Positions 1,462 through 22,612 of a DNA stretch of 24,760 nt are shown in pieces. The notes under the pieces were generated by a model. That model was not told the DNA's origin and ran no database searches. It saw nothing but the letters and a program-made list of their open reading frames with translations. The position numbers and the translations under genes were made by a program. The first letter of the stretch is position 1. Each line of letters begins with the position of its first letter. This DNA comes from a virus. The stretch spans positions 1 through 24,760 of IMG/VR virus record IMGVR_UViG_3300036845_000487. One strand, 5' to 3'.

Positions 1462-1478
1462 GTCAAGTATGAATTGTC
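1462..1478. promoter_or_regulatory. Operator-like palindrome GTCAAGTATGAATTGTC
   Basis: This 17-base site matches the GTCAAG-N5-CTTGTC pattern at 13 of 17 positions relative to the copy at 8799-8815. It lies 53 bases upstream of the minus-strand gene starting at 1409. On the minus strand it contains TTGACA, usable as a -35 box. It is one of nine such sites in the window. Confidence 0.5.
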
Positions 1479-1755
1479 GGAGGACCCGCTATGGGGGACC
1501 CAAAAAGGGGACCCAACTTCTGGTGGAGGGGGCCCCGATTTGGGAAAAATGGTGGGGGTATGTGGGGCGATCTCTACCGGCCGGGGTTCGGCTAAAGTGT
1601 CCAGGGCGTCCCCCCTCCGGGGGCGCCGCGGTGCTGCGAGTAACGTGCAAGTCGTCATGCAGTATATGTGTGTATAGTGATGTACTGGTATGTATTCGAT
1701 CGAGGCCGTGCAGTGCTCGCAAGGTTAGTGATGAAGAGCGTCACGCTGTCCCACC

Positions 1756-1776
1756 TCTGTCCCCCCGGAGGACAGA
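1756..1776. terminator. Perfect 7-bp hairpin downstream of the terminase small subunit gene
   Basis: TCTGTCC and GGACAGA are separated by a 7-base loop. The hairpin lies about 120 bases beyond the stop of the minus-strand terminase small subunit. No T-run follows on either strand, so a simple intrinsic terminator is not proven; a structural role in packaging is another possibility. Confidence 0.25.
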
Positions 1777-1894
1777 CCGCGCACCCGCGTTGGCTGGGAA
1801 AGCGGGGAACAGGCATGAAAGCTGAGTGTATTCAGCCACTTAGCTCAAGCCTGGCAAGGCGTGTCCCCAACAACACCCCCAAAGCGGCCGGCGT

Positions 1895-2473
1895 CTAAGC
1901 ACCCTCGTCGGGGTCTGAAAGCTCTTCATATTCAGCGTCTTGCGCCTCATCGACGGGCCCAGGGATCAAGCCTTGGATCGCGGCCTGATCGAGCAGCGCC
2001 CTCAACGCGGCGCGGCCAACATCGTCGAGGCTGGCGGGGTCGATGACGTGCCTGGTGGTCGTCTGCAGCTCGCCCTCGACCTTGAGCGTCCTGGCTGGCC
2101 CGTAGCGGCCGTTGTCCCAGCAGGCCAGCAGGCGCAGCCGCATCTCGCACTGGGCCTTGGCGCGTAGCACGGCGGCCGTGTTGAAGTGCGGGACGCCTTC
2201 CTTGTCGAACACCACGTCCTCGCTCTTGTCGTCGATGATCTCCAGCACCTCGACCGCCAGGCTGTCCCAGCCGAGCGCCCGCGCCGAGGCGATCTCCTCG
2301 GCGTAGGCTGGGTCCTTGTGCTCCCAACTGCTGACTGTCCGCTGGCTGGTGCCATGCCTCCTGGCGACGACGCTCAACGGCAACCCGCCCATCAGCCCGC
2401 GCACCACGTCAGCCTTCAGCTGCTCTCGATCGAGGCGGCGCTGGCGCCAACCTGGGGGGTCGTGCTTCGACAT
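1895..2473 (-). CDS. Terminase small subunit-like protein
   Basis: The 192-residue product starts MSKHDPPGWRQRRLDREQLK. An N-terminal helix-turn-helix (about residues 16-55, with SVVARRHGTSQRTVSSWEHK) would bind the phage packaging site. A helical oligomerisation region follows (YAEEIASARALGWDSLAVEV, then AVLRAKAQCEMRLRLLACWD), then an acidic tail. This architecture matches the small terminase proteins of many alphaproteobacterial prophages. The frame is open without a stop up to ATG 2725, so an automatic caller would give a 276-residue protein at 1895-2725. I prefer ATG 2473 because the terminase homology begins there and an operator-like palindrome sits just upstream (2485-2501). ATG 2473 lacks a clear Shine-Dalgarno site, so the start is uncertain. 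The large subunit is not in the window. Confidence 0.72.
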   Translation of the reverse strand: MSKHDPPGWRQRRLDREQLKADVVRGLMGGLPLSVVARRHGTSQRTVSSWEHKDPAYAEEIASARALGWDSLAVEVLEIIDDKSEDVVFDKEGVPHFNTAAVLRAKAQCEMRLRLLACWDNGRYGPARTLKVEGELQTTTRHVIDPASLDDVGRAALRALLDQAAIQGLIPGPVDEAQDAEYEELSDPDEGA

Positions 2474-2484
2474 CGCGCACGCGA

Positions 2485-2501
2485 GACTAGCATCACTTGA
2501 C
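2485..2501. promoter_or_regulatory. Operator-like palindrome upstream of the terminase small subunit
   Basis: On the minus strand this reads GTCAAGTGATGCTAGTC, 13 of 17 identical to the site at 8799-8815. It ends 11 bases before ATG 2473. This supports an independent transcription start for the terminase gene rather than read-through from 2725. Confidence 0.5.
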
Positions 2502-2725
2502 AAGATGCGGGAGCCGGCCCGTCGCCTCGTCATCCTGCCGGCGAGGCCGCATTGACCCGGCAGCCGCCAGGCCATGCAGTCCGACCCGATGCAGCGCGAG
2601 AGCGGGCGCCAGTCGTCGTCCACTCCCCTGATCTGCTCCTTGCCGTTGCTGGCCTGCCAGTAGTCGCCGAGCTGCACGATCCGCACGAACGGGCACCACT
2701 TGGTCCTGGCTTCATCCTCGGTCAT
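2493..2725 (-). CDS. Small Cys-containing phage protein, frame joined to terminase ORF (possible frameshift)
   Basis: From ATG 2725 (AAAGG 10 bases upstream) the frame reads MTEDEARTKWCPFVRIVQ and then CIGSDCMAWRLPGQCGLAGR. This resembles a family of roughly 60-70-residue stand-alone phage proteins with the C-x4-C-MAW and CGLAG signatures, possibly metal-binding. In the literal sequence it runs in frame into the terminase small subunit. If one base is missing near 2530, the frame would instead end QDDEATGRLPHLVK with a stop at 2493-2495, giving a normal-sized separate protein with good third-position G/C. Function unknown. The alternative is a true fusion, 1895-2725. Confidence 0.45.
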
Positions 2726-2746
2726 CTCAACAACCTTTGCTGTTTA

Positions 2747-2827
2747 CCCCTCTCAAGGGGTGAGCCCCAAGCGAACCCCACCCCCCCCACGCAGTGGGGG
2801 TAGGGGGAACCCCCCCGTAAGGGGGGG
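2747..2827. other. Cluster of G/C-run hairpins
   Basis: Three inverted repeats lie in 80 bases: CCCCT-CTCA-AGGGG (2747-2760), an imperfect C-run/G-run pair around an ACGCAGT loop (about 2777-2806), and C7-GTAA-G7 (2810-2827). They lie upstream of the 2725 start and next to the GGATCGAAG repeats. They could terminate the early leftward operon, or structure the DNA around a packaging or replication site. Sequence alone does not decide. Confidence 0.45.
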
Positions 2828-2853
2828 TAGGTGGATGGCGAACACCAATACCG

Positions 2854-2982
2854 GGATCGAAGGGGGGATCGAAGCCTCCTAAAGTGGATCGAAGGCAACT
2901 TTAAAGGAGGATCGAAGGGTGGATCGAAGCTACCTGAGATGGATCGAAGGGGGATCGAAGGGGGATCGTAGGGGGATCGAAG
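2854..2982. repeat. Nine iteron-like copies of GGATCGAAG
   Basis: GGATCGAAG starts at 2854, 2866, 2886, 2909, 2921, 2941, 2952 and 2974, with a one-base variant (GGATCGTAG) at 2963. Start-to-start spacings are 12, 20, 23, 12, 20, 11, 11 and 11 bases, mostly near one or two helical turns. All copies have the same orientation. No gene overlaps them. The position immediately upstream of the terminase small subunit unit suggests terminase binding sites (pac or cosB). An iteron replication origin is the main alternative. Confidence 0.8.
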
Positions 2983-3041
2983 CCAGCAAAAAGCCCCGCC
3001 AGCGGCTGCCAGCGGGGCTCAAGCTCAGCCATGTCAGGCGC

Positions 3042-3293
3042 TCAGCGCGGGATCGGCACGCCCCGAACCCACGGGCCCATCTCGTCGGTCACCGCCTGCA
3101 GCTGGAAGCGCAGCTGCGCCAGCAGCGCCTGCGCCCCAGCATAGTCCTTCCCGGCCCGCACCGCGGCCGCCAGTCGGGCCACGCGCAGCTTGGGCACGCC
3201 CAGCGCCCGCGCCAGGTCGCCCTGCCACTTGTCGCCGTAGAGCCGCTCAGCGAAGCCTACGAGGGCCGCGGCGTAGTTCGGCGGGGTCTGCAT
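3042..3293 (-). CDS. Small phage protein with possible helix-turn-helix
   Basis: The 83-residue product begins MQTPPNYAAALVGFAERLYG. The segment KWQGDLARALGVPKLRVARL (about residues 22-41) has the spacing of a helix-turn-helix, and the rest is helical. Its ATG (3293) overlaps the stop of the upstream gene as TGATG, so the two are translationally coupled. It is the last gene of the leftward early operon before the repeat region at 2854-2982. A DNA-binding role is inference. Confidence 0.7.
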   Translation of the reverse strand: MQTPPNYAAALVGFAERLYGDKWQGDLARALGVPKLRVARLAAAVRAGKDYAGAQALLAQLRFQLQAVTDEMGPWVRGVPIPR

Positions 3294-3993: not shown

Positions 3994-3999
3994 TGGTTC

Positions 4000-6303: not shown

Positions 6304-8238
6304 CCTCTCAGGTGCGACAGGTGGTCCTACCCGTTCGATGAAGCTGATCTGCCGGGACTTTGGACCCCAGGTTCCGACGCGGATGGCGCCGACGACGAAC
6401 TGCCGGTTCATCGCCGCCTGGAAGCCTTTCATGGTGGTGCCGTGGGCGCGTGGATCAGCGGCGAACAGGGTGGGCCCGTAGTTGCGGCCGGGGAGGTGGC
6501 TGACGGTGCGGCCCTCGGCCTTGAAGGCGTCGAGCAGCTGCAGGAACTGCGCGTCGACCCGGTCGGCGGCAATCTGGCGGTCGAGGCCCGACGCCGCCGG
6601 GCCGCTCAACTCGTCGCAATCGAAGGCCCCGGCCACGTAGCGCAGCCGCAGCTCGGCGCCGGCCTGGGTGTAGTTGGCCTTCTTGACCGCGAGCGTGCGC
6701 AGGTTGGGCTCGGACGCGCCGCCGTCCTCGGCGACCGGCGCCGACATGAACATCCGACTACGGACGGAGTTGTTCCAACCCGTTGAGCCCGACAGGCCGC
6801 TGCCCGTGGCGAGCCCCGTCAAGCTCGGGTGACCGAGCAGCAGCATGGCGGTGTCGGCCGGCATCGCCAGGCCGCGCAGCAGCCGCACGAACTGGCGCAC
6901 CTGGCTGCGCTCGTTCTCGTTGGCCCCGTACACGTCGGCCAGGCTGTCGAAGACCACCAGCGCCGGGCGATCTAGCTCGACGAACCGCCGCAGCTCCTCC
7001 CACCTCGGCGTGGCCTGCAGCGCCTGGCCTGGCGCGCCCGTCACCAGCAGCGCGTCCTCGTCGGCCAGCGACCACATCGTCAGCCCTGGCGCGCGCTCCA
7101 GCGCCACCCCGTAGAACGTGCTGATCTGATCGGTGCGGCGGTGCAGCTCGTCGCGGTCATCCTCGGCCGACAGATGCAGCGCCCGCCCCTGGCGTACCTG
7201 TTGGCCGATCCAGGGGAGGCCGGCGGCCGTCGCGAAGGCCAGCTGCAGCGCCAGGATCGACTTGCCGACGCCGCCGTCGCCGCCCAGCAGCGTGACGGTG
7301 CGCGCCGGCACTAGGTCGGGGACGTGCCAGACGCGGGATGGGACCAGCAGGCCCTCAAGACTGGCGGCCGTGAACGCGCCGATCAGCGCCGGGGCCGCCA
7401 CGCCATAGGCCGGCAGCTCGGCGGCCAGCGCCTCCAGGTCGGCGGCCGTGTGGCCCTCCAGGTAGTCGCTGGCGTCGCCCTTGGGCGGGCACGCGGGCCA
7501 GGCCTGGCTGAGGTCTTCCAGCAGCCGTACCCGCGCGGCCACCGGCGCCAGCTGCGCCGCCACCGCCCGCGCATGCTCGCGGCCAGCCTCGTCGTTGTCG
7601 CCGAGCGCGACGACATCGGCGCCCTTGAAGTACGGGTTCAGCGCCGGCTTCCACTTGCCGGCCCCGCCAGCGTTGGTGGTCGCCGCCAGGCCCTCAGCGC
7701 GCAGCCGATCGACATCGCGCTCGCCCTCGACGACCCAGATGGTCCGCCCCTCGGCAATGGCGCTGATCAGCTCGGGCAGCCGGTAGGGGATCGGCTCGAT
7801 GCCCTTCGTCGACCATATCCAGTCGCCGTGCCCGTCCGGGCGCCGCTGCACGAACGCCTTGGGCCGCTTGCGGCACACCTGGAACACCAGCGCCTGGTCG
7901 GCCGCTTGGTAGCCGTAGGTCTGCACGATGTGAGCAGCGCCAGGGTCATGCCCGTTCGGCTTGGACGGCGCCGGCGCCGGGTAGTTGGTGTCGATCCAGT
8001 CCCAGGCAGCGTCATGGTCGAGCAGCTCCTGGCGCTCGACGAAGGTGACGACGCCGCCGCCCTCCTTGATCTCGTGGTTGTAGAAGAGGCCCTTCACGGG
8101 ATCGACGGCCATCGAGCCGTGGGTCCCCCAGCGCAAGAGCGTCGGCGTCGAGAGTTGCGGGTTGGGATCGCCGAGCAGGCGCCGGGCGACTGGCTCCATC
8201 AGGGAGCGTAACTCCGCGTCACTGCGGTACGCGGGCAC
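6301..8238 (-). CDS. TOPRIM primase fused to RepA-type (AAA_25) helicase
   Basis: This is the phage replication protein, 645 residues, starting GTG 8238 after a strong GGAGGGGGG ribosome site. The N-terminus (residues about 30-70, including GLFYNHEIKEGGGVVTF) is the zinc-less N-domain type seen in phage primases. A TOPRIM core follows, with VVEGERD (E171) and GDNDEAG (D214, D216) for metal binding. The helicase part has Walker A GGDGGVGKS (319-327), Walker B VVFD (428-431) and a GH motif near 470, as in RepA/AAA_25 ATPases. It would prime and unwind phage DNA. The gene overlaps the RuvC-like frame by 20 bases and follows it in the Cro-led operon. The family assignment is confident, but primase activity is not proven by sequence. 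Confidence 0.93.
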   Translation of the reverse strand: MPAYRSDAELRSLMEPVARRLLGDPNPQLSTPTLLRWGTHGSMAVDPVKGLFYNHEIKEGGGVVTFVERQELLDHDAAWDWIDTNYPAPAPSKPNGHDPGAAHIVQTYGYQAADQALVFQVCRKRPKAFVQRRPDGHGDWIWSTKGIEPIPYRLPELISAIAEGRTIWVVEGERDVDRLRAEGLAATTNAGGAGKWKPALNPYFKGADVVALGDNDEAGREHARAVAAQLAPVAARVRLLEDLSQAWPACPPKGDASDYLEGHTAADLEALAAELPAYGVAAPALIGAFTAASLEGLLVPSRVWHVPDLVPARTVTLLGGDGGVGKSILALQLAFATAAGLPWIGQQVRQGRALHLSAEDDRDELHRRTDQISTFYGVALERAPGLTMWSLADEDALLVTGAPGQALQATPRWEELRRFVELDRPALVVFDSLADVYGANENERSQVRQFVRLLRGLAMPADTAMLLLGHPSLTGLATGSGLSGSTGWNNSVRSRMFMSAPVAEDGGASEPNLRTLAVKKANYTQAGAELRLRYVAGAFDCDELSGPAASGLDRQIAADRVDAQFLQLLDAFKAEGRTVSHLPGRNYGPTLFAADPRAHGTTMKGFQAAMNRQFVVGAIRVGTWGPKSRQISFIERVGPPVAPER

Positions 8239-8764
8239 GACCCCCCTCCGCTGGACGACCTCCCATTGTTAGCGTGGCGCCGGCGCCAGCGGCGCGGTGA
8301 AGACCGCAGGCTCCGATCAGGCCGGCCTCGGCGCGATCGACATCCTTCTTGAGCGCGAATAGCCCGGCGTGAGCGGGCCAGCGGGCGATGGCTTGCGCCC
8401 GTGCGATGTCCTTGTTCTCTTTGCCGGGCGGCACGCCCGCGTACCGTTTCCAGGTGGCCGGCGTCAGCCAGACGATGGGCAGATCGTAGGCGCCGGCGAT
8501 CCCTTCGATCACGCCGCGGGCGCGACCAAATGCAAAAGCAGCCACCTTGGCATCCGTAGGCCGCGCCCCCACCCACTCGCAGAAAATGCGGCAGGCTTGT
8601 GACCGCGCGATGATCTCGGCAAGCAACGGCGCGTTGGTTGCCCTTCGGCCGTTCGCTTCAAGCGTCGCCGGCATGTCGACGACATCGATCAAATCGGCCG
8701 CCTCGCTTAGTATTGCGATGGCGCCATTCACACCGAGATCAATACCAAGAACGACAGCCGCCAT
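8219..8764 (-). CDS. RuvC-like Holliday junction resolvase/nuclease
   Basis: The 181-residue product begins MAAVVLGIDLGVNGAIAIL, the classic RuvC first strand with catalytic Asp (about D9). It continues with CEWVG (acidic Glu about residue 63), the helix AAFAFGRARGVIEGIAGAYD, WLTPATWKRYAG, and the final acidic pair in KKDVDRAEAGLIG. It probably resolves branched recombination or replication intermediates before packaging. ATG 8764 follows GACGGAACGGTCACA; the operator at 8799-8815 lies about 35 bases upstream. The literal C-terminus overlaps the primase start. After about 8312 the frame loses its G/C third-position bias, and a one-base shift would give the shorter ending AVFTAPLAPAPR, so a local indel is possible. 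Confidence 0.88.
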   Translation of the reverse strand: MAAVVLGIDLGVNGAIAILSEAADLIDVVDMPATLEANGRRATNAPLLAEIIARSQACRIFCEWVGARPTDAKVAAFAFGRARGVIEGIAGAYDLPIVWLTPATWKRYAGVPPGKENKDIARAQAIARWPAHAGLFALKKDVDRAEAGLIGACGLHRAAGAGATLTMGGRPAEGGRARVPQ

Positions 8765-8795
8765 TGTGACCGTTCCGTCATCTGATGTCGCACGC

Positions 8796-8818
8796 CTTGA
8801 CAAGCCGGACTTGACAAG
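8796..8818. promoter_or_regulatory. Operator with two CTTGACAAG half-sites
   Basis: On the plus strand CTTGACAAG occurs twice, overlapping the 17-base palindrome GACAAGCCGGACTTGAC (8799-8815). It lies between the Cro-like gene (stop 8832) and the RuvC-like start (8764). It is the most symmetric of the nine sites and is taken here as the reference copy. TTGTCA on the minus strand could serve as a -35 box. Confidence 0.6.
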
Positions 8819-8831
8819 GAAATTAAGGCTC

Positions 8832-9083
8832 TCAGCCTGCTGCGTCGGTCGTCTCGGAGGGCGGCGCGTCGTAGAGGTCGGGACGGAGGCGCCAAGGGGG
8901 TATGCCGGTGACATCTGACAGCTGGCGGACCCATTCCGCCGGAACCGCGTGCCATCCGCTGATCGCCTGCTTGGTGATGCCAAGCTTGAGGCCGATCTCC
9001 TTGAGGTTGCCGTATTGCGAATACCGGAAGGCTTCGACCGCCTTCTGTGCCTCAGGCGAGGGAGTGCTTGCGCGCTTCGCCAT
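8832..9083 (-). CDS. Cro/YdaS-like DNA-binding regulator
   Basis: The 83-residue product begins MAKRASTPSPEAQKAVEAFR. The helix-turn-helix is NLKEIGLKLGITKQAISGWH (residues about 26-45), followed by VPAEWVRQLSDVTGIPPWRL and RPDLYD, the ending typical of Cro/YdaS-type regulators. It is the first gene of the leftward early operon, divergent from the CI-like repressor across 81 bases. By analogy with lambdoid switches it should oppose the repressor. A half-site CTTGAC lies at 9090-9095 just upstream of its ATG. YdaS-type antitoxin is a naming alternative, but no toxin partner is seen. Confidence 0.82.
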   Translation of the reverse strand: MAKRASTPSPEAQKAVEAFRYSQYGNLKEIGLKLGITKQAISGWHAVPAEWVRQLSDVTGIPPWRLRPDLYDAPPSETTDAAG

Positions 9084-9164
9084 AGCAACCTTGACCTCGA
9101 CTGCTTCCGCCCGTCAGCAATCTCCGCCCACTTACGAAAAGCGTCAAGTTAGGCCTTACCGACC
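9084..9164. promoter_or_regulatory. Divergent immunity control region with operator at 9143-9159
   Basis: The 81 bases between the Cro-like and CI-like starts hold the palindrome GTCAAGTTAGGCCTTAC (9143-9159), only 5 bases before the GTG start of the CI-like gene, and a CTTGAC half-site at 9090-9095. ACTTACG precedes the palindrome (from 9130), an arrangement repeated at 9804-9825. The repressor gene has no Shine-Dalgarno site, so a leaderless message is plausible. Confidence 0.6.
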
Positions 9165-9731
9165 GTGATCGAGACCCCCACCATCGGCGCGCGCATCGCG
9201 CTGGCCCGCGACACCTACCGGCTGAGCCAATCGCAGCTGGGCGCCAACCTGGGCGTCACCCGCGCGGCGGTCAGCCAGTACGAGCAGGACAAGATCAGGC
9301 CCCGGCCGAGGGTGATCGACCGCCTGGCGGAGATGTTCAACTCGGACCCGGAGTGGTTCGAGCGTGGCAGCGGCAAGGGGCCCGACGTGCTCGACGTGCC
9401 GGTGACCATCCCCGAGATCAACATCGCGCTGCTGACGCTGCAGGCGCCTGATCCACGCGAATTGCACGTCGGTCGCCACTGGCGGCTGCCGAGCGCGACG
9501 TTCGAAGAGATCGACAAGCTCCGTGATCACATGGTCGCGATCCTGGCCCCGAACGACGCCGCGCCGATCCTGGCTGGTGACAGGGTTTTGATCGACACCC
9601 GGCGACATCGCGGCGCCGGCGTGTTCCTCTTTATCGATCCGATCGGGGTGCGGCTCTCCAGCCGTGACGGCAACTTCCCGAGCAAGGCGCGGATCATCGG
9701 CCGCGCTATCGGCTACCTGCGGACGCTCTGA
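9165..9731 (+). CDS. CI-like phage repressor (XRE helix-turn-helix plus degenerate S24/LexA-like domain)
   Basis: The 188-residue product begins MIETPTIGARIALARDTYRL (GTG start). The XRE domain is clear: SQSQLGANLGVTRAAVSQYE then QDKIRPRPRVIDRLAEMFN (residues about 18-60). The C-terminal 65 residues (AAPILAGDRVLIDTRRHRGA through IIGRAIGYLRTL) match the beta fold of S24 peptidases and LexA. The usual Ser-Met nucleophile region reads NDAAPIL, and the expected Lys strand reads GVRLSSR, so self-cleavage looks impossible. It likely maintains lysogeny by binding the GTCAAG-N5-CTTGAC sites. It faces the Cro-like gene and is followed by a 129-base control region. Confidence 0.87.
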   Translation: MIETPTIGARIALARDTYRLSQSQLGANLGVTRAAVSQYEQDKIRPRPRVIDRLAEMFNSDPEWFERGSGKGPDVLDVPVTIPEINIALLTLQAPDPRELHVGRHWRLPSATFEEIDKLRDHMVAILAPNDAAPILAGDRVLIDTRRHRGAGVFLFIDPIGVRLSSRDGNFPSKARIIGRAIGYLRTL

Positions 9732-9770
9732 AAACCGGCCGTGTACGGCTCGGTTGTAACCAGTCGATCC

Positions 9771-9833
9771 GTCAATTTGCGCTTGACCAGCCGCTCAACC
9801 GAGACTTACGCTTCCCGTCAAGTGAGGGAGCCG
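9771..9833 (+). promoter_or_regulatory. Operator/promoter region for the rightward recombination operon
   Basis: GTCAATTTGCGCTTGAC (9771-9787) is a palindrome of the shared type. TTGACC (9783-9788) and TTACGC are 17 bases apart and could form a promoter. A GTCAAG half-site follows at 9817-9822 in the context ACTTACG-N5-CGTCAAGT-N-AGG, the same arrangement found before the repressor gene (9130-9153). The gene at 9861 lies about 30 bases downstream. Confidence 0.5.
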
Positions 9834-9860
9834 AAGAGACCGGGAAGGGGAGTGGCGTAA

Positions 9861-10118
9861 ATGCCTGAGCCGGATTGGGAAGAAGTCTCCACGCTAGCCA
9901 TCAAAGGCGCCCAGCGAGATGCCGTCGAAGCGATCCGCGACGCGGCCATCATCATCAAACACATCGGCGGCCGGAACGCCGTCGACACCTACCTGAACCA
10001 TACGCTCTGCGAGCTGTTGAGCGTCGCGATCAACGAGCAGGGCCAGGCGAACGCCTGCCAGCTGATGTACGCCGGCCTGGTCACCGCCGAAAACTACACC
10101 GAGAAGACCAGGTGCTGA
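9861..10118 (+). CDS. Small helical phage protein of unknown function
   Basis: The 85-residue product begins MPEPDWEEVSTLAIKGAQRD. It is almost entirely helical (AVEAIRDAAIIIKHIGGRNA, then ELLSVAINEQGQANACQLMY) with no catalytic motif. GGGGAG precedes ATG 9861 with normal spacing. It is the first gene of the rightward operon, immediately before the YqaJ exonuclease, so it may be an accessory or regulatory protein of recombination. Not recognised. Confidence 0.75.
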   Translation: MPEPDWEEVSTLAIKGAQRDAVEAIRDAAIIIKHIGGRNAVDTYLNHTLCELLSVAINEQGQANACQLMYAGLVTAENYTEKTRC

Positions 10119-10119
10119 C

Positions 10120-11025
10120 GTGGACGACGCGCGCCTCGATCCCGATGCGTTGGGCAACGCCGGCACCCCCGAGGAGCGGCGCACCGGCATAGGCGGTTCC
10201 GACGCCGCCGCCGCCCTTGGCCTCTCGCCCTGGCGCTCGCCGTACGACCTCTGGGAAGAGAAGGTCGGCCAGGCGCCGCCGATCGAGCAGACCGAGCCGA
10301 TGCTCTGGGGCAAGCTGCTGGAGGACATCGTCCGGCGTGAGTACGTCCGCCGCACCGGGATGGAGGTGACCTACCGCCAGGAGATGGTCCGCCACCCGGC
10401 GCGCCCCTGGATGTTCACGCACCTGGACGGCGAGATCGGGCGGGATGGCCGCGCGATCCTGGAGGTGAAGACCTCGCGCATGGGCCAGGACTGGGGCGAG
10501 CAGGACACCGACGAAATCCCGCTGCCCTACCTCGTCCAGGTCCACCACGCCCTGGCGGTCACCGCGGCCGAGGTCTGCGACGTGGCGGTGCTGATCGGCG
10601 GCCAGGACTTCCGGCTCTACCAGGTCAGCCGCGACATCGAGATCGAGCAGCAGCTGATCGAGGGCGAGGCGGCGTTCTGGGAACTGGTGACGCAGGGCGT
10701 GCCGCCGCCGCCGAGGACCCTGGAAGACGCGGTGAAGCGCTGGGGCCACTTCGACGCCAAGGGCTACGTCGTGGCCGGCGAGGCCGAGCTGAACGCCATC
10801 GACATCCTGCGGCGCAGCAAGGGGCTGCGGAAGGAACTCGACGAGGCCGAGGAGATGGCCAAGCTGACGATCATGGAGGCGCTCGGCGATAACGGCCTGA
10901 ACCTCGTGCATCCGGCCGGCGAACTGCTGGCGACCTGGAAGCTGGATAGCGGGCGCAAGGCCTACAGCGTGGCGGCCAAGGAGCCGTCGCGGCGCTTCCT
11001 GGTCAAGCATTTGGATGAGGTCTGA
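10120..11025 (+). CDS. YqaJ-type phage recombination exonuclease
   Basis: The 301-residue protein starts at GTG 10120 next to the upstream stop. It shows the YqaJ/lambda-exonuclease fold of PD-(D/E)XK nucleases: GIGGSDAAAALGLSPW (about 23-38), LWGKLLEDI with Glu69, HLDG with Asp103, ILEVKTS with Glu115 and Lys117, and YLVQVHH with Gln140. The C-terminal half is helical. Such enzymes resect double-stranded ends 5'-3' and work with a single-strand annealing protein, for which the next gene is the candidate. Its stop (11023-11025) is followed at once by the next start, so the pair is probably co-translated. Confidence 0.92.
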   Translation: MDDARLDPDALGNAGTPEERRTGIGGSDAAAALGLSPWRSPYDLWEEKVGQAPPIEQTEPMLWGKLLEDIVRREYVRRTGMEVTYRQEMVRHPARPWMFTHLDGEIGRDGRAILEVKTSRMGQDWGEQDTDEIPLPYLVQVHHALAVTAAEVCDVAVLIGGQDFRLYQVSRDIEIEQQLIEGEAAFWELVTQGVPPPPRTLEDAVKRWGHFDAKGYVVAGEAELNAIDILRRSKGLRKELDEAEEMAKLTIMEALGDNGLNLVHPAGELLATWKLDSGRKAYSVAAKEPSRRFLVKHLDEV

Positions 11026-11026
11026 G

Positions 11027-12172
11027 ATGTCCGACGAAATCGCAGTCGTAGAGAACCCGTTCGGCGAGAGCGCGGCGCGACCGCCTGCGACGCTGACAGC
11101 GATGGCCGAAGCCGCCGCTGAGCGCGAGGTCGCTGAGGTGCAGGCCGGCGTCATCATGGCGCGCAAGTTTCCGCGCGACCGCATCGCCGCCACGGACGCC
11201 ATCCTGCAAGACTGCACGCGCCTCTCGCTCGCCCAGGCGGCGGTCTACAACTACTCGCGCGGCGGCACCGAGATCACCGGCCCATCGATCCGGCTCGCGG
11301 AAAGCTTGGCCCAGAACTGGGGGAACATCTCGTTCGGCATCAAGGAGGTGGTGCGCGGCGAGCGCCAGTCCGAGATGGAGGCCTTCGCCTACGACCTGCA
11401 GACCAACCTCAAGGTCCGCCGCGGGTTCATCGTCAAGCACGAGCGCTACAGCCGCACCGGCGGCCGTCAGGCGCTCACCGGCGACGTGGAGCGCGATGTC
11501 AACGAGATCACCAGCAACCAGGGCGCCCGGCGCCTGCGCGCCTGCATCCTGGCGGTGATCCCCGGCGATGTCGTCGAGGCCGCCGTCACCCAATGCGAGA
11601 CGACGCTGCTGGCCAAGGCCGATACCTCTCCCGAGGCGGTGGGCAAGCTGGTCACCGCGTTTGAGCAGTTCGGGGTGACGCGCGAGCAGATCGAGACGCG
11701 CATCCAGCGCCGCCTCGACACCATCCGCCCAGCCCAGATCGTGCAGTTGCGCAAAACCTGGGCGTCGCTCAACGACGGCATGTCGGTGGCCACCGACTGG
11801 TTCCCCAAGCCGCAGCCTGAAGGCGGCGAGCCGGCCGCGCCGGAGGCGAAGGGCAACGAGGGCCTGAAGGCGAAGCTGCGCCCTACTGCACGGGCCGCTT
11901 CAGCCCCTGCCGCCGACCAAGCCCCTGGCGAAGCTGCACCGCCTGCCTCCGAGCCTGGAACGGCGGCTGGTACGTCGGCTACTGGCGACGCTACTTCGGG
12001 TGAGCGCCCCCAGAGCGGTGCCCACACTGCGGGGCTGGCAACACCTACGCCGGGCTCTGCGACCGCTGCGTCACCGCCTTCGCCGGGCCAGGAGGCCTCT
12101 GGCCAGCCGCCGCCCGCCAAGCCGTCGAGCGCTGGCGAGCTGCCACTACGTGAGCCTGGCGAGGAAGGCTGA
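11027..12172 (+). CDS. Candidate single-strand annealing/recombination partner (C-terminal frame suspect)
   Basis: ATG 11027 is preferred over ATG 11015 because GAGG (11017-11020) precedes it. The core (residues about 30-280) contains VIMARKFPRDRIAATDAILQ, YNYSRGGTEITGPSIRLAES and LAQNWGNISFGIKE, then RRLRACILAVIPGDVVEAA. I recall such proteins beside YqaJ-type exonucleases in prophages. By position it should be the annealing partner, but I cannot tie it firmly to RecT, Erf or Rad52. From about 11880 the frame loses its G/C third-position bias and turns into an A/P/S/G-rich tail. The -1 frame then carries the bias and ends NGGWYVGYWRRYFG with a stop at 12001-12003. A missing C in the run at 11881 would explain this, and the true gene would be 11027-12003. 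Confidence 0.7.
   Translation: MSDEIAVVENPFGESAARPPATLTAMAEAAAEREVAEVQAGVIMARKFPRDRIAATDAILQDCTRLSLAQAAVYNYSRGGTEITGPSIRLAESLAQNWGNISFGIKEVVRGERQSEMEAFAYDLQTNLKVRRGFIVKHERYSRTGGRQALTGDVERDVNEITSNQGARRLRACILAVIPGDVVEAAVTQCETTLLAKADTSPEAVGKLVTAFEQFGVTREQIETRIQRRLDTIRPAQIVQLRKTWASLNDGMSVATDWFPKPQPEGGEPAAPEAKGNEGLKAKLRPTARAASAPAADQAPGEAAPPASEPGTAAGTSATGDATSGERPQSGAHTAGLATPTPGSATAASPPSPGQEASGQPPPAKPSSAGELPLREPGEEG
12000..12153 (+). pseudogene. Small zinc-ribbon-like protein, frame apparently broken by one extra C
   Basis: From 12004 to the stop at 12151-12153 one frame reads ERCPHCGAGNTYAGLCDRCV and ends QAVERWRAATT, with strong G/C third-position bias and a CPHC-x8-C-x2-C metal-binding pattern. 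It has no start codon. If the five-C run at about 12007-12011 had four C, GTG 12000 would begin MSAPERCPHCG, overlapping the previous stop as GTGA, the coupling used throughout this operon. It is therefore a real small gene either frameshifted or affected by a sequencing error. Confidence 0.5.
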
Positions 12173-14043: not shown

Positions 14044-14245
14044 AGACCTCGCCGAGCTGTTCATCGACGATCCCCCGCAGCGGTCGCGGCTGTTGAGGGT
14101 CGGCTACGCCCAGGCCGAGCTAGACATTCTGCGGCGCCGGCTGGCCCAGCACATCCAGGAAGCGATCGAGGACTGGTTCGCGGTGCTCGACGACGAGATC
14201 GAAGCGAAGGAGAGAGAGCATGGACACCCAGCAGATCACCGTTGA
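14015..14245 (+). CDS. Small helical phage protein (76 residues)
   Basis: ATG 14015 follows GAGGGA. The product begins MAFGFDPACEDLAELFIDDP and continues with a long helix, YAQAELDILRRRLAQHIQEA then IEDWFAVLDDEIEAKERE, which could form a coiled coil. An in-frame ATG at 13976 lacks both bias and ribosome site. It overlaps the next gene by 26 bases. Not recognised. Confidence 0.75.
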   Translation: MAFGFDPACEDLAELFIDDPPQRSRLLRVGYAQAELDILRRRLAQHIQEAIEDWFAVLDDEIEAKEREHGHPADHR

Positions 14246-14828
14246 CCGTGAGGAGGCGCGCGAGCTGTTCCGCAAGTACAAGGAGCACCAGCACTACAGC
14301 ACCCCCGTCGACCTTGAGATCATGCGCGCGTACGACGCCGTCGCGAATGGCAAGGTGCTGATCCGCGCCGTCGCCAGCATCGCCAGCGCCGGCCTCGGCG
14401 AAGACGGCCTGCCGAAGCTGGCCATCTGCCGCGCCGCCGACGACCAAGGCCGGCTCATCGAGCAGTGCCACCTCTATCTGAAGGACGATGGCGGCGCGCG
14501 GTTCTCGACGACGCCGTGGGCCAAGGACCGCAATTGGCGCACCTACGTCGACATCCCCGCCGATAGCTTCCCGAGGTCCCCCAAGCGCTTCCGCCACTGG
14601 GCCGCCCAGGTGCCGCTGGTGCCGATCCATCTGCGGCCGAAGCCGCGCCGGGGCAACCCGCTGGGCGCGCTCGCCAACTACCACGTCCTCTGGGAAGCTG
14701 AGTGGACGCGGATCGTGCCGAAGGACCCGCTGCTGCTGCGCCAGGTCGGCCGGGGCGACCTCTGGATCGTCTGCGCCGCCTGGGACCTCACCGAGGTCGA
14801 GCGCGCCGTGCTGGCGGGCCGGCTATGA
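14220..14828 (+). CDS. Phage protein of unknown function (202 residues)
   Basis: The product begins MDTQQITVDREEARELFRKY after a strong GAAGGAGAGAGAGC leader. The N-terminal third is helical. The middle is beta-rich (KLAICRAADDQGRLIEQCHL) and the C-terminal part (NYHVLWEAEWTRIVPKDPLL then GDLWIVCAAWDLTEVERAV) looks like a compact fold. Similar proteins are, as I recall, common in rhizobial and related prophages, but no activity is known to me. No catalytic signature was identified. It is in the middle of the coupled plus-strand operon. Confidence 0.83.
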   Translation: MDTQQITVDREEARELFRKYKEHQHYSTPVDLEIMRAYDAVANGKVLIRAVASIASAGLGEDGLPKLAICRAADDQGRLIEQCHLYLKDDGGARFSTTPWAKDRNWRTYVDIPADSFPRSPKRFRHWAAQVPLVPIHLRPKPRRGNPLGALANYHVLWEAEWTRIVPKDPLLLRQVGRGDLWIVCAAWDLTEVERAVLAGRL

Positions 14829-17516: not shown

Positions 17517-17716
17517 TCACCCTCCGCAACGAGCCCTGCGGCTGCCCTGAGGGCGCCTGCTGGGCCTTCGTCGAACCGGCCAGCGAGTGCATCAACCGGC
17601 TGACTGGCGAGGTGGTGACGCGCCACTGCGAGGTCTGCGATCCTGGCGGCTCGGGCAGCACCTGGCACCATGACGGGCAGTGCTTGCGCTGCCGGCACCT
17701 GGAGCGGCTGACGTGA
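17513..17716 (+). CDS. Cys-rich small phage protein (67 residues)
   Basis: The GTG start at 17513 overlaps the preceding stop as GTGA. The product begins MITLRNEPCGCPEGACWAFV and later has RHCEVCDPGGSGS and WHHDGQCLRCRHLERL, giving nine Cys and several His. A zinc-ribbon or two-site metal protein is likely. Its C-terminal ERLT is the same as that of the gene before it. Confidence 0.75.
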   Translation: MITLRNEPCGCPEGACWAFVEPASECINRLTGEVVTRHCEVCDPGGSGSTWHHDGQCLRCRHLERLT

Positions 17717-18189
17717 CCAAGCCCCTCTCGCCCTTCATCCCCATCCACAACCGCGTCGCTGACGCCCAGGCGCAGTCTGCGGCGCTGATGGAGCGCACCC
17801 AGCCCGCCGAGGTCGCCTGCGGTGGCTGCACGCTCTGCTGCCGATCTGGCGAGCTGATCCTCGTCACCGAGGACGACCCCGACTACCCCTACGACACCCG
17901 CGAGATCGTGGTCGGCGAGCGCACCTTCCTGGCGCTCCAGGTGAAGGCGGACGGATCGTGCGTCTACGTCACCGACACCGGCTGCGCGATCCACGGTCAC
18001 GCGCCGCTGACCTGCCAGGTGTTCGACTGCGGCGCGCTCTACGCCTCGACCACCCGCGCGCAGCGCCGCGCCACCATCGGCGCCGCCAACCGCTCGTTCG
18101 AAGGCCGCGCCTACGTCAAGGCGCTCTATGCTCGGGGCCGCGAGCTGCACCGGCTGCGGATCGGCCTGGAGGAGCAGCGGGATGGGTGA
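17713..18189 (+). CDS. YkgJ-family Cys-cluster protein (first of two)
   Basis: The GTG start at 17713 gives MTKPLSPFIPIHNRVADAQA, 158 residues. The YkgJ pattern is clear: ACGGCTLCCRSGELILVTED (C-x2-C-x2-CC, residues about 36-55), SCVYVTDTGCAIHGHAPLTC and QVFDCGALY. This family is annotated as a zinc- or iron-chelating, possibly Fe-S, domain, with no defined reaction. It overlaps the next gene, which encodes a second, more divergent member. Its purpose in a phage is unknown; metal-dependent RNA or protein modification is one guess. Confidence 0.88.
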   Translation: MTKPLSPFIPIHNRVADAQAQSAALMERTQPAEVACGGCTLCCRSGELILVTEDDPDYPYDTREIVVGERTFLALQVKADGSCVYVTDTGCAIHGHAPLTCQVFDCGALYASTTRAQRRATIGAANRSFEGRAYVKALYARGRELHRLRIGLEEQRDG

Positions 18190-18907
18190 ATCCAAACGCC
18201 GCGCCGAGTTCACAACCGTCCTCGACATGATGACCGGCAAAGAGCGGCAAGTGCGCAATGCCGGCGACGTGACCACGTTCCTGCGCAAGCATCGACCGCG
18301 GGAGGCTGCCGTCGTCCCGTGCGACGGGTGCAGCGAGTGCTGCTATCACGCGGGCGTCGATGTCTACCCGGAAGTTGACGCGGCCAACCTACCGTTCCTG
18401 ACGACCGAGCGCCGGGACGACGGCAAGCTCTACCTTGCTAAGCGCGCGGATGGGGCGTGCGTACATCTGGGCCCGAACGGCTGCACCGTCAGAGAGCACC
18501 GGCCCAGAGCCTGCCGAAACTACGACTGTCGCGTCTACTCGCTGTTCTCGATGGCTGACAAGTTCGACGGCGACCACAACGCGCCGGCTTGGTTTTTTGA
18601 CGCCAGGACGATCGAGGGCCGAGCGTACCTCGAAGCTGCGCGCCTGTGCGGCATGGCGGAATTGGTAAGGCGTCGCCGCGCCGGGGAGGACGCCTCGGCC
18701 AGCGCCGTGGCCAACGCGGTGCTCACTTCAGAGTTCTTCGCCAAGACCCAGGAGTTCTATCGGGAGATGTGGTCAGCGCCGCCCGAGCAGCGTCTGGCTT
18801 TCGTTCGCAGTTGCGGCCTCGATCCTGATGACCCGGAGGGCATGCAGGAGACGCTGATGGAGGCCACGCGCAAGATGCTAGGCGATTCCGAAGAGCAGCC
18901 GGGATGA
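18182..18907 (+). CDS. YkgJ-family Cys-cluster protein (second of two)
   Basis: ATG 18182 gives 241 residues, MGESKRRAEFTTVLDMMTGK onward. The YkgJ cluster spans about residues 47-120: PCDGCSECCYHAGVDVYPEV, CVHLGPNGCTVREHRPRACR and NYDCRVYSL. A C-terminal helical extension of about 110 residues (from the stretch AWFFDARTIEGRAYLEAARL onward) is absent in the first copy. The two genes overlap by 8 bases, so the proteins are co-produced and may form a heteromer. Confidence 0.88.
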   Translation: MGESKRRAEFTTVLDMMTGKERQVRNAGDVTTFLRKHRPREAAVVPCDGCSECCYHAGVDVYPEVDAANLPFLTTERRDDGKLYLAKRADGACVHLGPNGCTVREHRPRACRNYDCRVYSLFSMADKFDGDHNAPAWFFDARTIEGRAYLEAARLCGMAELVRRRRAGEDASASAVANAVLTSEFFAKTQEFYREMWSAPPEQRLAFVRSCGLDPDDPEGMQETLMEATRKMLGDSEEQPG

Positions 18908-20070: not shown

Positions 20071-20325
20071 TCAGCGCTTCCGCTTCGCCCCGGCGATCTG
20101 CTCGGGGGTGGGGATGGGAAACTGCCGCCCGCGGCCGGTGGCGGCGTACTCCTCGAACTGGCGGGTGAGCGCATCGACATCGACCCCGACGCCGGTGATC
20201 GTCGGGCCCATGCCGCAGCTGACGCAGACGGGTCGGCGGTAGGGGCCGAGCGTGTAGCAGATGGGTCCGTCGACAACGACGCAGGGCGTCAAGGCGGACC
20301 GCTGGCGCGAGCAGTGCTGGGTCAT
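20071..20325 (-). CDS. Small Cys-containing phage protein (84 residues)
   Basis: ATG 20325 follows GAGGG with normal spacing. The product begins MTQHCSRQRSALTPCVVVDG and contains ICYTLGPYRRPVCVSCGMGP, a probable zinc ribbon, followed by a helical C-terminus (DVDALTRQFEEYAATGRGRQ). It is divergent from the excisionase-like gene, with two operator-like palindromes between them (20356-20400), so it may be under repressor control. Function unknown. Confidence 0.74.
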   Translation of the reverse strand: MTQHCSRQRSALTPCVVVDGPICYTLGPYRRPVCVSCGMGPTITGVGVDVDALTRQFEEYAATGRGRQFPIPTPEQIAGAKRKR

Positions 20326-20355
20326 TTTGCAACCCTCGCGCAACTCGCGCCCCCT

Positions 20356-20400
20356 GACAAGTCCGGCTTTACAGCGCCCGACAGACAGGTGTGGCTTGAC
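20356..20400. promoter_or_regulatory. Two tandem operator-like palindromes between divergent genes
   Basis: GACAAGTCCGGCTTTAC (20356-20372) and GACAGGTGTGGCTTGAC (20384-20400; minus-strand form GTCAAGCCACACCTGTC) are 28 bases apart centre to centre. They lie between the gene starting at 20325 (minus) and the excisionase-like gene at 20451 (plus). TTGACG inside the second site could be a -35 box for the plus-strand gene. Confidence 0.55.
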
Positions 20401-20450
20401 GCCCATGTAAAGCGGTTCAAGAGTGCGCGCGAGCTTCTGGAGGCGATGAA

Positions 20451-20678
20451 ATGCCGACGCTGAGGCCTGCGGTGCTGAAGCCCGGCCGGCTGGCCTACTC
20501 GGTGGCCGAAGCCGCAACGGCGCTGGGCGTGTCCGACATGACGATCTATCGGCGGATCAAGGATGGCAGCTTGACGACTTACAAGTGGGGCGGACGAACC
20601 CTCATCCGCCCCGAAGACCTGCAAGCGAGCCTGGACGCCGCGCTAGGCCGCACGCCGGAAGGGCAGGACGACCGCTGA
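20451..20678 (+). CDS. xis: Excisionase-like helix-turn-helix protein
   Basis: The 75-residue product begins MPTLRPAVLKPGRLAYSVAE. The winged-helix core (YSVAEAATALGVSDMTIYRR, then IKDGSLTTYKWGGRTLIRPE and DLQASLDAAL) is the MerR/excisionase DNA-binding fold. GGAGG lies 7 bases before ATG 20451. It is convergent with the integrase and overlaps its 3' end by 36 bases, an arrangement that allows antisense coupling. It is probably the recombination directionality factor, though a general transcription regulator of the same fold is possible. Operators upstream suggest repression in the lysogen. Confidence 0.85.
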   Translation: MPTLRPAVLKPGRLAYSVAEAATALGVSDMTIYRRIKDGSLTTYKWGGRTLIRPEDLQASLDAALGRTPEGQDDR

Positions 20679-21932
20679 GGGCGGCACGCAGTAGCGGGAC
20701 CACTCACTCATCACCACCCGGCGACGCTCTAGCCAGCGGTCGGTCAGGTAGGCTTGGCTCACGTCGCTGCCGATCTTGTGGGCGAGGCACACGTCCATCA
20801 GATCGCGGTCGAAGACGCCGTGCTTGCCGTGCGTCATCGCGGTTCCCCAGTTCTTCAGCGAGCTGCGAAACCCGTGCGTGGTCGGCTTCTCGCCAGCCAG
20901 CGCCTTGACGTGCATCAGCATCTCCTTCGGCGTGTAGGCCTTCCCCTTGCCGTTCGGGAAGATCAGGTCGTTGGGGCGCGCGCCGACCGGCGGCTTCGCT
21001 TTGCGCAGGATGCGGACCATGTGGATGCTGAGCGGGATGACGTGCGGCTCGCCGTGCGTGTCGTCCTCGGCCTTCATCCGCTCGGGCGGGATCGTCAGGG
21101 TGCGCGCCTTCAGATCGACCTCGCGCCACTCCGCTTCCAGAATCTCGTTCGCCCGGCAGCCGGTGGCGATCACCATCTCCAGCGCGCGGGCGCTGATCTG
21201 CGGACGCAGCGCCAGCTTGGACAGAAACGCCGGCACTTGCTGATAGGGCAGCGACGCGCGGGACTTGGGATGCGCCTCGAACTTGCGGCCGATGGCGCGC
21301 TCGATCAGCTTGAAGTCGGCCGGGTTCACCCGCACGCCGTCCTGCTCGGTGTTGACGTAGCGGTGGTCGAGGACCCGGCGGATGCGCCCGCACAGCTCCT
21401 TGGCGGTGGCCGGATGCTCGGACCAGATCGGCGCGATGATCGCCTTCACGTCGTCGCGGCCGATGTTGTCGATGGGCATCTGCGCCAGCGCGCCGACCGT
21501 GATGCCGTCCGACTCGGTGTCGGTCATCTGGCGCACCCAGCACTGACGGGCGTTGGCGCTCTTGGGCGCGAGGTAGCTGGCGTTGGCGCTGGCCCACGCG
21601 GCGAACGTCGGGATGCCCTTGGCCGTCTCGGCGGCGGCCTTGTTGTGGACGATGGGGTTGATGCCGTCGCGCAGCAGCTTGCGGTCGTTGTCGCGGATGC
21701 TGCGAGCGTCGGCGAGGCTGATGGTGTCCGGGAACTCGCCGGGGAACATCCGCTCCTTCGGCTTGCCGGCCCACTGAAACTTGTGCAGGAAGCGGGCGCG
21801 GCCCGCGGCGGTCACGATCAGCCAGAGGCCGCCGCCGTCCCCGAAGTCCTTGGTGGCGCCGGCGGTGCGGAGCTTGGCGATGTCCGCCAGGAGCTGCTTG
21901 TGAGCGAGCTTGTTGGTGGTGCGCTTGGTCAT
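20643..21932 (-). CDS. int: Phage tyrosine integrase
   Basis: The 429-residue protein starts MTKRTTNKLAHKQLLADIAK at ATG 21932, preceded by GGAAGGGGACC. ATG 22007 is in frame but has no ribosome site. The N-terminus is of the DUF4102/P4-integrase type (FGDGGGLWLIVTAAGRARFL). A SAM-like core-binding domain occupies about residues 105-205. Catalytic residues are Arg260 (ATGCRANEIL), Lys287, His353 and Arg356 (THGFRSS), His385 (CLAHKIG) and Tyr395 (SQAYLTD), so the site is complete. It would integrate and, with the excisionase, excise the phage. The attachment site is probably close by but was not identified. Confidence 0.95.
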   Translation of the reverse strand: MTKRTTNKLAHKQLLADIAKLRTAGATKDFGDGGGLWLIVTAAGRARFLHKFQWAGKPKERMFPGEFPDTISLADARSIRDNDRKLLRDGINPIVHNKAAAETAKGIPTFAAWASANASYLAPKSANARQCWVRQMTDTESDGITVGALAQMPIDNIGRDDVKAIIAPIWSEHPATAKELCGRIRRVLDHRYVNTEQDGVRVNPADFKLIERAIGRKFEAHPKSRASLPYQQVPAFLSKLALRPQISARALEMVIATGCRANEILEAEWREVDLKARTLTIPPERMKAEDDTHGEPHVIPLSIHMVRILRKAKPPVGARPNDLIFPNGKGKAYTPKEMLMHVKALAGEKPTTHGFRSSLKNWGTAMTHGKHGVFDRDLMDVCLAHKIGSDVSQAYLTDRWLERRRVVMSEWSRYCVPPSAVVLPFRRAA

Positions 21933-22250
21933 TTTTGGTCCCCTTCCGCGTCCCCGGAAACATCCCCAATTGGGCGTGTGGAGCGGTGTGGGACCATGTG
22001 AGCCCATGTTGGGACATGAGCAAGCAAGTGGTTGTTTTGGAACAGCTAAGTGTTAGCCCGTGTGGCAACTTGAGGTGCTATGTTGGCGATCCCACCTTTC
22101 CCCGCGAAAGCGGGAAGTCCTGGCATTTTTCCAATCCATTCAAGCGCTTGTCCTGATCTTGGGGGAACGGCTCCCCAATAACGTCCCCAATTCGGCAACC
22201 GTCAGGTGGTGAGCGCCCGCGCCGACCTGTGCGCTTCCGTCACACCACGC
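21933..22250. other. Gene-free region upstream of integrase; candidate attP arm region
   Basis: About 320 bases are without a convincing gene. They hold TCCCCAATT at 21962 and 22188, nested repeats around CCATGT and GGGACATG (about 21993-22019), a GNRA-type hairpin CCCGC-GAAA-GCGGG (about 22098-22112), the perfect palindrome CAAGCGCTTG (22141-22150), and a TTGGGG/CCCCAA hairpin (22159-22178). AT-rich runs separate them. Integrase arm and core sites commonly look like this, but no tRNA 3' end or other recognisable core is visible. Confidence 0.4.
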
Positions 22251-22267
22251 GTCAAGGTAGGCTTGCC
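22251..22267. promoter_or_regulatory. Operator-like palindrome before the 22270 gene
   Basis: GTCAAGGTAGGCTTGCC matches the shared operator pattern. It ends 2 bases before ATG 22270, leaving no room for a ribosome site, as at the repressor gene (9143-9159). TAGGCT inside it could be a -10 box for a leaderless message. Confidence 0.55.
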
Positions 22268-22269
22268 CG

Positions 22270-22425
22270 ATGACGCCGCTGCTCTGGCACGTCCTGTTCT
22301 ATGTCGGGCTGTTCGTGATGGGCGTCGGGCTCGGCCGCTTGGCGGCGGCCTGGGCGCGGCAGCCTAGACGCCCCAGCGGCGCGCGTAGAGCCTGGCGCGT
22401 TCCTGGTAGGCGTCGCGGAAGCTGA
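22270..22425 (+). CDS. Possible small membrane protein (51 residues)
   Basis: ATG 22270 opens MTPLLWHVLFYVGLFVMGVG then LGRLAAAWARQPRR, with one transmembrane helix (about residues 4-24) and a basic tail. Support is the operator site directly upstream and G/C-rich third positions in the first 30 codons. The last 20 codons overlap the minus-strand gene at 22364-22588, so the end is less sure. Unknown role. Confidence 0.45.
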   Translation: MTPLLWHVLFYVGLFVMGVGLGRLAAAWARQPRRPSGARRAWRVPGRRRGS

Positions 22426-22588
22426 GCCCGAGCCGGTCGGCGACTTCCCTGATCTCGGACATCGTCACCGCCTTCATCAGGAGGCGCACGCGCTCTTCTG
22501 GCGAGAGCCCCCGATAGACCGGCGCGGGGTTCGTCGATGGCGGCAGCAGGCGCGCCTTGAACCTCTCCATTGCGAAGGCGTCAGCCAT
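22364..22588 (-). CDS. Small phage protein with probable helix-turn-helix (74 residues)
   Basis: The product begins MADAFAMERFKARLLPPSTN. The C-terminal part, SPEERVRLLMKAVTMSEIRE then VADRLGLSFRDAYQERARLY, resembles a sigma-like or MarR-like helix-turn-helix. An operator-like site (22596-22612) is 7 bases upstream of ATG 22588 with no Shine-Dalgarno site. ATG 22570 (MERF) is an alternative start. It is divergent from the small plus-strand genes at 22631. Possibly a regulator. Confidence 0.66.
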   Translation of the reverse strand: MADAFAMERFKARLLPPSTNPAPVYRGLSPEERVRLLMKAVTMSEIREVADRLGLSFRDAYQERARLYARRWGV

Positions 22589-22595
22589 GTGCTGA

Positions 22596-22612
22596 CGCTA
22601 GGGCCGCTTGAC
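22596..22612. promoter_or_regulatory. Operator-like site between divergent small genes
   Basis: On the minus strand this reads GTCAAGCGGCCCTAGCG: a full left half-site and a weaker right half. It lies in the 42-base gap between ATG 22588 (minus) and ATG 22631 (plus). CTTGAC on the plus strand could be a -35 box. Confidence 0.4.

Follow-up and report, generated by a model that had tools for sequence, protein, structure and literature searches.

The virus record IMGVR_UViG_3300036845_000487 of IMG/VR was analysed over its whole length of 24,760 bases (68.8% G+C; hereafter the window). It contains eight strong copies of a 17-base palindrome, GTCAAG-N5-CTTGAC, which we consider likely to be operators of the CI-like repressor encoded at 9165-9731, perhaps shared with a Cro-like protein, and to form a dispersed lysogenic regulon. 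The gene set, with an integrase, an excisionase-like gene, a small terminase and the repressor among others, fits a temperate tailed phage, and the record is probably a fragment. Three of the sites lie in the immunity region, and the other five are more than 1200 bases from cI. The two regulators and the eight predicted operators, scored as described below, are:

8799-8815, no strand assigned: operator A, GACAAGCCGGACTTGAC, 22.0 bits, 34 nucleotides (nt) upstream of the RuvC-like ATG (8764, minus strand)
8832-9083, minus strand: Cro-like small helix-turn-helix (HTH) protein, YdaS-related (PF15943, 7.5e-6; phrog_35 repressor), divergent from cI, possible second ligand
9143-9159, no strand assigned: operator B, GTCAAGTTAGGCCTTAC, 15.9 bits, in the cro/cI gap, 5 nt ahead of the cI-like start codon
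9165-9731, plus strand: CI-like repressor with an HTH_3 and a C-terminal domain (PF01381, 9.4e-11; phrog_4 repressor, 4.3e-15), proposed main ligand
9771-9787, no strand assigned: operator C, GTCAATTTGCGCTTGAC, 23.5 bits, between cI and the operon of an 85-residue gene and a YqaJ exonuclease
1462-1478, no strand assigned: dispersed operator, 20.8 bits, 52 nt upstream of the gene at 819-1409 (minus strand)
2485-2501, no strand assigned: dispersed operator, 15.6 bits, 11 nt ahead of the likely ATG of the terminase small subunit (2473, minus strand)
20356-20372, no strand assigned: dispersed operator, 16.8 bits, in the divergent gap between 20071-20325 (minus strand) and the excisionase-like gene
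20384-20400, no strand assigned: second operator in the same gap, 19.1 bits, with outer element GTAAAG at 20407-20412
22251-22267, no strand assigned: dispersed operator, 17.3 bits, beside the integrase gene and 2 nt before the ATG of a 51-residue open reading frame (ORF) at 22270-22425

A first-pass annotation of this DNA had proposed a phage-wide regulon of nine such sites, the ninth at 22596-22612. All nine quoted sequences are present where they were placed, and an intact GTCAAG half stands on one strand in each of them except 20356. The palindromic pattern is real, although none of the nine is a perfect copy (three have one mismatch, five have two, and 22596 has three). Allowing up to three mismatches, the pattern matches the window 23 times, compared with 7.07 ± 2.83 in 100 dinucleotide shuffles; it is enriched, yet the nine sites are not its sole matches at that tolerance. 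Because such looseness mixes signal with noise, a weight matrix was built from 26 sites around the repressor gene in nine relatives (three each, two in G002), the window being excluded, and sites of at least 14 bits are called strong. Eight of the nine proposed sites are the window's eight top scores, from 23.5 to 15.6 bits (in order 9771, 8799, 1462, 20384, 22251, 20356, 9143 and 2485), but 22596 reaches only 6.0 bits. The next-best score, 9.0 bits, is within a gene and 6.6 bits below that of the eighth site.

Shuffling the window 500 times, with codons and protein kept in genes and dinucleotides kept in gaps, gave a mean of 0.158 sites of at least 14 bits (maximum 2), and 3000 matrices with permuted half-site columns, kept palindromic, gave a mean of 0.13 window sites (maximum 3). 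The proposal of a regulon thus survived the check for equal-scoring matches at similar density within genes, for which the matrix scan and the codon-preserving shuffles served. When all hexamers with gaps of 0-12 and two mismatches were ranked as palindromes in the non-coding DNA, with expectations from independent bases, GTCAAG-N5 was placed first of 53,248 by Poisson rank (8 seen, 0.088 expected). Poly-C patterns outnumber it in raw non-coding counts, and in the whole-window ranking, with coding DNA included, codon-related patterns such as TCGACG-N10 lead instead.

The sites were said to lie in or at the edge of gaps, and all eight strong ones lie in the 13.1% of the window that is non-coding according to a simple gene caller supplemented with three hand-set genes (the small-terminase start, the RuvC-like start and the excisionase-like gene). 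For 2485-2501 this requires the terminase start at 2473; the site falls inside the longest ORF (start 2725) and is in a gap only with the later ATG, which is plausible because the Sf6_terminase match starts only at residue 102 of the longest ORF. The 51-residue ORF beside 22251 was not picked by the gene caller. Across the 13 repressor-bearing records (the window and the twelve relatives described next), 59 of the 62 sites of at least 14 bits fall in gaps; the caller missed small genes in the relatives (cro in several), and the repressor and cro positions checked by tblastn or as ORFs spare the A, B and C sites.

Repressors 44-61% identical to that of the window occur in twelve relatives, the closest found being other IMG/VR contigs. 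When genome contigs were scanned twice for a cellular relative of the repressor, 94 and 65 stretches matched the patterns used but no relative emerged, and a scan of a phage collection gave eight records with best identities of 27-36%. The three immunity-region positions were compared in alignments of ten records together with three further records. All 12 relatives keep operator A at no less than 14 bits, 11 do so for operator B (10.0 bits in G012) and 10 for operator C (11.6 bits in G004, 7.8 in G002). In the nine training records, whose sites were picked by consensus likeness, these scores are partly circular, but the positions are not. Operator B mostly stands 2-5 nt before the repressor start. 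Further matches of 18.9 bits (G009, locus L020, 1404-1420) and 20.1 bits (G008, 1604-1620) fall within the opening codons of the repressor gene; they may represent a fourth operator of the immunity region or have arisen by chance from the coding sequence.

Among related loci the motif tracks the repressor gene, and its apparent dependence on that gene is one of co-occurrence. The 13 repressor-bearing records (304,458 bases) contain the 62 sites mentioned above, of which 25 are training sites, whereas 27 control loci without this repressor (484,381 bases) contain six, never two per locus. The controls share other window genes (exonuclease, RuvC, primase or the 202-residue gene at 14220) and form a loose set, many being distant, with L061 and L062 overlapping and six loci having weak repressor hits of 25-37% identity. 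Record G010 (L025, 5,263 bases) encodes a primase, a RuvC, an exonuclease and a phrog_3657 protein that are 73%, 74%, 79% and 69% identical, respectively, to those of the window; this one short record has neither a repressor nor a Cro homologue, and its best motif score is 7.13. We regard G010 as an apparent immunity-module swap within an otherwise similar replication and recombination block. A 91-residue ORF without a Pfam match (L025 3200-3475, minus strand) occupies the cro/cI place there.

That control would reach beyond the immunity region, as first proposed, is supported by the distant sites: 23 sites of at least 14 bits, the window's five included, lie more than 1200 bases from the repressor gene in 8 of the 13 records, whereas 400 permuted matrices averaged 1.65 such sites and never gave more than 12. 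The site at 1462 has a counterpart at 2985 in G006, and both precede, by 52-53 nt, a gene that the two records share at 71% identity. Elsewhere, G001 has sites at 733 before a gene resembling PAPS reductase, at 33932 before a tail-fibre gene and at 35705 (13.7 bits) beside an excisionase-like gene; the 13655 site of G003 precedes an HNH gene adjoining an integrase, and the 18284 site of G004 adjoins an integrase. A G/C-rich element, TTTTTCCCAAATYGGGGCCCCC (minus strand), occurs at 1528-1549 in the window and at 2280-2301 in L017, near an operator in the window and in G006, and a similar stretch was seen around 4658 in G007.

The ninth proposed site is listed separately:

22596-22612, minus strand: doubtful half-site, GTCAAG with an outer CTTTCC (22619-22624, minus strand), 6.0 bits, within background

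Its layout recurs at 14630 in G003: both have the GTCAAG half, CTTTCC or CTTCCC on the outside, and CTAGCG ahead of small genes that are homologous (51% identical). Since G002 keeps CTAGCG without the GTCAAG half, CTAGCG is probably part of a gene leader and not an operator half, and 22596 would be a half-operator at most; its score likewise excludes it as a full operator. An inverted repeat, GCGTCAGC-CATGT-GCTGACGC, at 22578-22598 spans the start codon of the gene at 22364-22588 (minus strand) and adjoins the CTAGCG leader.

The properties of the CI-like protein are compatible with a role as the main ligand. Its HTH_3 match is above the curated cut-off (42 bits against 23 for PF01381), and the domain is nearest to that of P22 c2 both by profile (8.1e-9) and by fold (Z 12.3, root-mean-square deviation (rmsd) 1.3 over 67 residues). 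P22 c2 is thus the closest solved HTH, but its operator differs, and we know of no dispersed operator set for it. The 13 repressors hardly vary in the recognition-helix segment TRAAxSxYE, although their C-terminal halves diverge, a pattern that a fixed operator would lead one to expect. For the C-terminal model alone (predicted local distance difference test score 78), LexA, UmuD' and 186 CI were listed, all at insignificant E-values of at least 0.3; the VIA-align fold comparison covered mainly residues 3-69, so that missing C-terminal relatives there mean little. No serine is present in the APNDAAP segment of the window repressor, which may correspond to the S24 motif, and the absence of the serine would then fit a repressor that is not self-cleaving.

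On the sequence evidence we infer the identity of the binding protein, repression itself and a role in lysogeny, and the following scheme would account for the arrangement. The CI-like repressor would bind as a dimer, with one HTH on each GTCAAG half, and the Cro-like protein may occupy some of the same sites. In a lysogen, operator A would shut the leftward RuvC/primase unit, operator C the rightward exonuclease operon, and operator B would govern the cI and cro genes. The terminase end, the excisionase gap and the small genes by the integrase would each be silenced separately through the dispersed sites. At operator C the right half of the palindrome is a −35-like CTTGAC, and binding there would occlude RNA polymerase, while at B, 2485 and 22251 the site stands 2-11 nt before a start codon and a bound protein would block initiation or early elongation.

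The flanks of the sites hold an unexpected second element. In 18 of 52 oriented flanks a CTT begins exactly 12 nt before the site, and no other offset from −42 to −6 has more than three; the flanks are those of 26 dispersed sites, including three under 14 bits (22596, 14630 in G003 and 35705 in G001). The element, CTTNNC, lies 6 nt outside the better half-site, and is mostly CTTACC, CTTTCC, CTTTAC or CTTGAC at dispersed sites, with CTTACG, CTTACT, CTTAAT and similar forms at operators A and B. The related palindrome CTTGAC-N6-GTCAAG is sixth in the non-coding ranking (5 seen, 0.088 expected). In the immunity region the corresponding features are:

8822-8827, minus strand: outer element CTTAAT, 6 nt from the GTCAAG half of operator A (from alignments of relatives)
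9131-9136, plus strand: outer element CTTACG, 6 nt upstream of operator B (from alignments of relatives)
9782-9822, plus strand: possible rightward promoter overlapping operator C, made up of CTTGAC (−35-like), 17 nt, CTTACG (9805-9810), 6 nt and GTCAAG (9817-9822)

The last of these bears on the suggestion that the palindromes are mainly host sigma-70 elements, the GTCAAG/CTTGAC pairs being divergent promoters with the alphaproteobacterial −35 hexamer CTTGAC. A consensus of CTTGAC-N17-CTATAT is given for Sinorhizobium meliloti in portions of PMC2873474, and the same spacing is found at site C, where a CTT-type hexamer, CTTACG-like in the window, stands 17 nt past CTTGAC in 9 of 10 aligned records. 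Yet none of the 52 dispersed flanks has a TATAAT-like hexamer at a spacing of 16-18 after the embedded -TTGAC, the fixed N5 palindrome would go unexplained, and gene-sharing loci without the repressor mostly do not have the motif, though they still need promoters; moreover, an alphaproteobacterial host is only a guess here. We therefore think it unlikely that sigma-70 elements account for most of the sites. The first-pass annotation had also placed the sites beside promoters, which was not borne out by a simple sigma-70 scan of 8200-10200: it found none, and only 9771 has a conserved −35/−10-like arrangement in that interval.

Two simple accounts of the outer element fit imperfectly. As a −10 box it would be expected to follow -TTGAC, yet of 19 flanked, oriented dispersed sites a single one has that hexamer 17 nt upstream, and at 1462 and at 2985 in G006 it is on the side away from the gene, which also counts against a plain −10 box. 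As a plain third CTTGAC half it does not conform in its fifth base: this is C in 42 of the 82 flanks when oriented, compared with A in 53 of 82 core halves. A −10 box whose operator covers the start site is one possible reading of the element; another is an outer half-site displaced by one turn of the helix. Tentatively, and with a good deal more doubt than belief, we suggest that the operators are alternating half-site modules on one face of the helix, CTTNNC-6-GTCAAG-5-CTTGAC-6-GNNAAG (centre steps of 12, 11 and 12 bp), in which the half-site would also be the host −35 hexamer and either the Cro-like protein or a second dimer of the repressor would recognize the outer half. If so, any host-type promoter in the phage could become an operator with few changes and dispersal of immunity control would be easy to evolve, and two regulators or two affinity states would share one element.

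The Cro-like protein could itself be the main ligand, the dispersed set then acting as a lytic-phase switch-off with no lysogenic regulon. Its gene is beside cI in the relatives aligned, the protein is 50-77% identical in six relatives aligned with the HTH conserved across seven, and G010 is without both genes and without the motif. Its HTH match is weak, however, falling under the curated cut-off of PF15943 (YdaS_toxin; 26.1 bits against 30, with the L014 homologue at 30 against 30). CI and Cro of phage switches usually share operators, so this explanation does not exclude the one we prefer, and it is likely that the two proteins share operators here; that Cro is the main ligand and that no lysogenic regulon exists seems improbable. 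Binding by a host regulator whose box the phage adopted is more improbable still. Many regulators could recognize so short a palindrome, but the motif follows the phage repressor gene among related loci and clusters around it at fixed positions.

Several observations weigh against a dispersed regulon of the CI-like repressor. In the records whose Cro-like gene was examined cI and cro co-occur, and co-occurrence cannot separate the two ligands. Among the window's dispersed strong sites an orthologous site was found only for 1462, in G006, and 5 of the 13 repressor records have no site of at least 14 bits outside the immunity region; these are G002 (20 kb), G007 (14.8 kb, best score 13.8) and G005, G008 and G009, each under 9 kb. 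Three sites of at least 14 bits lie inside genes, two being those at the repressor gene start in G008 and G009 and the third in another gene of G011, and sites of 18.3 and 17.8 bits occur in two of the control loci, one in each. To these may be added the choice of training sites by likeness to the consensus, which leaves scores, and not positions, partly circular, the missing operator C of G002 and the weak operator B of G012. With these points counted, we still regard operators of the CI-like repressor as the likely explanation.

The remaining annotated genes to which the sites are related are:

8219-8764, minus strand: RuvC-like resolvase (phrog_1770, 1.8e-19), leading gene of the leftward unit behind operator A
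9861-12172, plus strand: 85-residue gene, YqaJ exonuclease (PF09588, 2.6e-33; phrog_434) and phrog_3657 gene (2.4e-88), behind operator C
20451-20678, plus strand: excisionase-like gene (PF12728, 9.4e-10; phrog_66), adjoining sites 20356 and 20384
20643-21932, minus strand: tyrosine integrase (PF00589, 1e-10; phrog_1)

Profile matches agree with the terminase small subunit, RuvC-like, CI-like and excisionase neighbours named at first pass. Of the recombination operon named there, the YqaJ exonuclease has such a match, while the gene after it (11027-12172) matches phrog_3657, a phage family of unknown function, and is not labelled RecT here. Homologues of the 9861-12172 neighbours are in the same order in several relatives. 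The window also encodes a primase/helicase-type protein, and an Rfam scan gave 0 matches. Upstream of the small terminase are direct repeats of GGATCGAAG with an 11-bp period (3.8 copies, 2941-2982) and a pair of 42-nt repeats at 2854 and 2909; the repeats at 2854-2982 could be a packaging or replication site. At 17713-18907 two adjoining genes match the same relatives' proteins, at 78-85% and 32-37%, the second having a CxxCxxCC (zinc- or iron-chelating) domain.

The proposed contrast with a compact OR/OL pair is fair for lambda, but dispersed operators are no new principle, since portions of PMC4557955 document phage-wide repressor regulons of this kind in mycobacteriophages and phiC31. The genomes of phiC31 and L5 each carry 18-30 scattered repressor sites, an arrangement like that proposed for the window, although phiC31 has three repressor isoforms and another gene layout (PMC4557955, in part). 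The stoperators of L5, a Cluster A phage, are likewise gap sites far from the repressor gene, but are described in parts of PMC9283540 as 13-bp, asymmetric, transcription-oriented and predicted to be bound by a monomer; the window sites are inverted repeats and not of that asymmetric type, GTCAAG-N5-CTTGAC being the top non-coding palindrome. In BPs, the repressor gp33 has operators in the switch plus copies in small intergenic regions elsewhere; it binds four extra intergenic regions, and three of four promoters are down-regulated in a lysogen (PMC4557955). The gp33 sites are paired 12-bp half-sites 5 or 8 bp apart, whereas here there is one 17-bp palindrome, often with CTTNNC 6 nt outside. 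The 186 CI protein is also a two-domain repressor and uses distal sites with DNA looping (PMC8053113, in part); it is second in the Foldseek list for our full-length model (1.3e-4) but with an rmsd of 14.0, and the C-terminal domain alone matches it only insignificantly (E-values of 0.66-0.78). A search for a GTCAAG palindrome together with a phage repressor turned up nothing relevant in the parts of the literature that were accessible.

The dispersed-operator architecture is thus already known from phiC31, L5 and BPs, and what is new here is a further phage group with a palindromic operator. This uncultured group adds 13 records of natural variation and one relative with a replaced immunity block, and provides a first basis for sequence-based prediction of repressor-operator pairs, of immunity groups and of the genes that are silenced. 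How such operators are built is a concrete question that the recurrence of the outer CTTNNC element raises.

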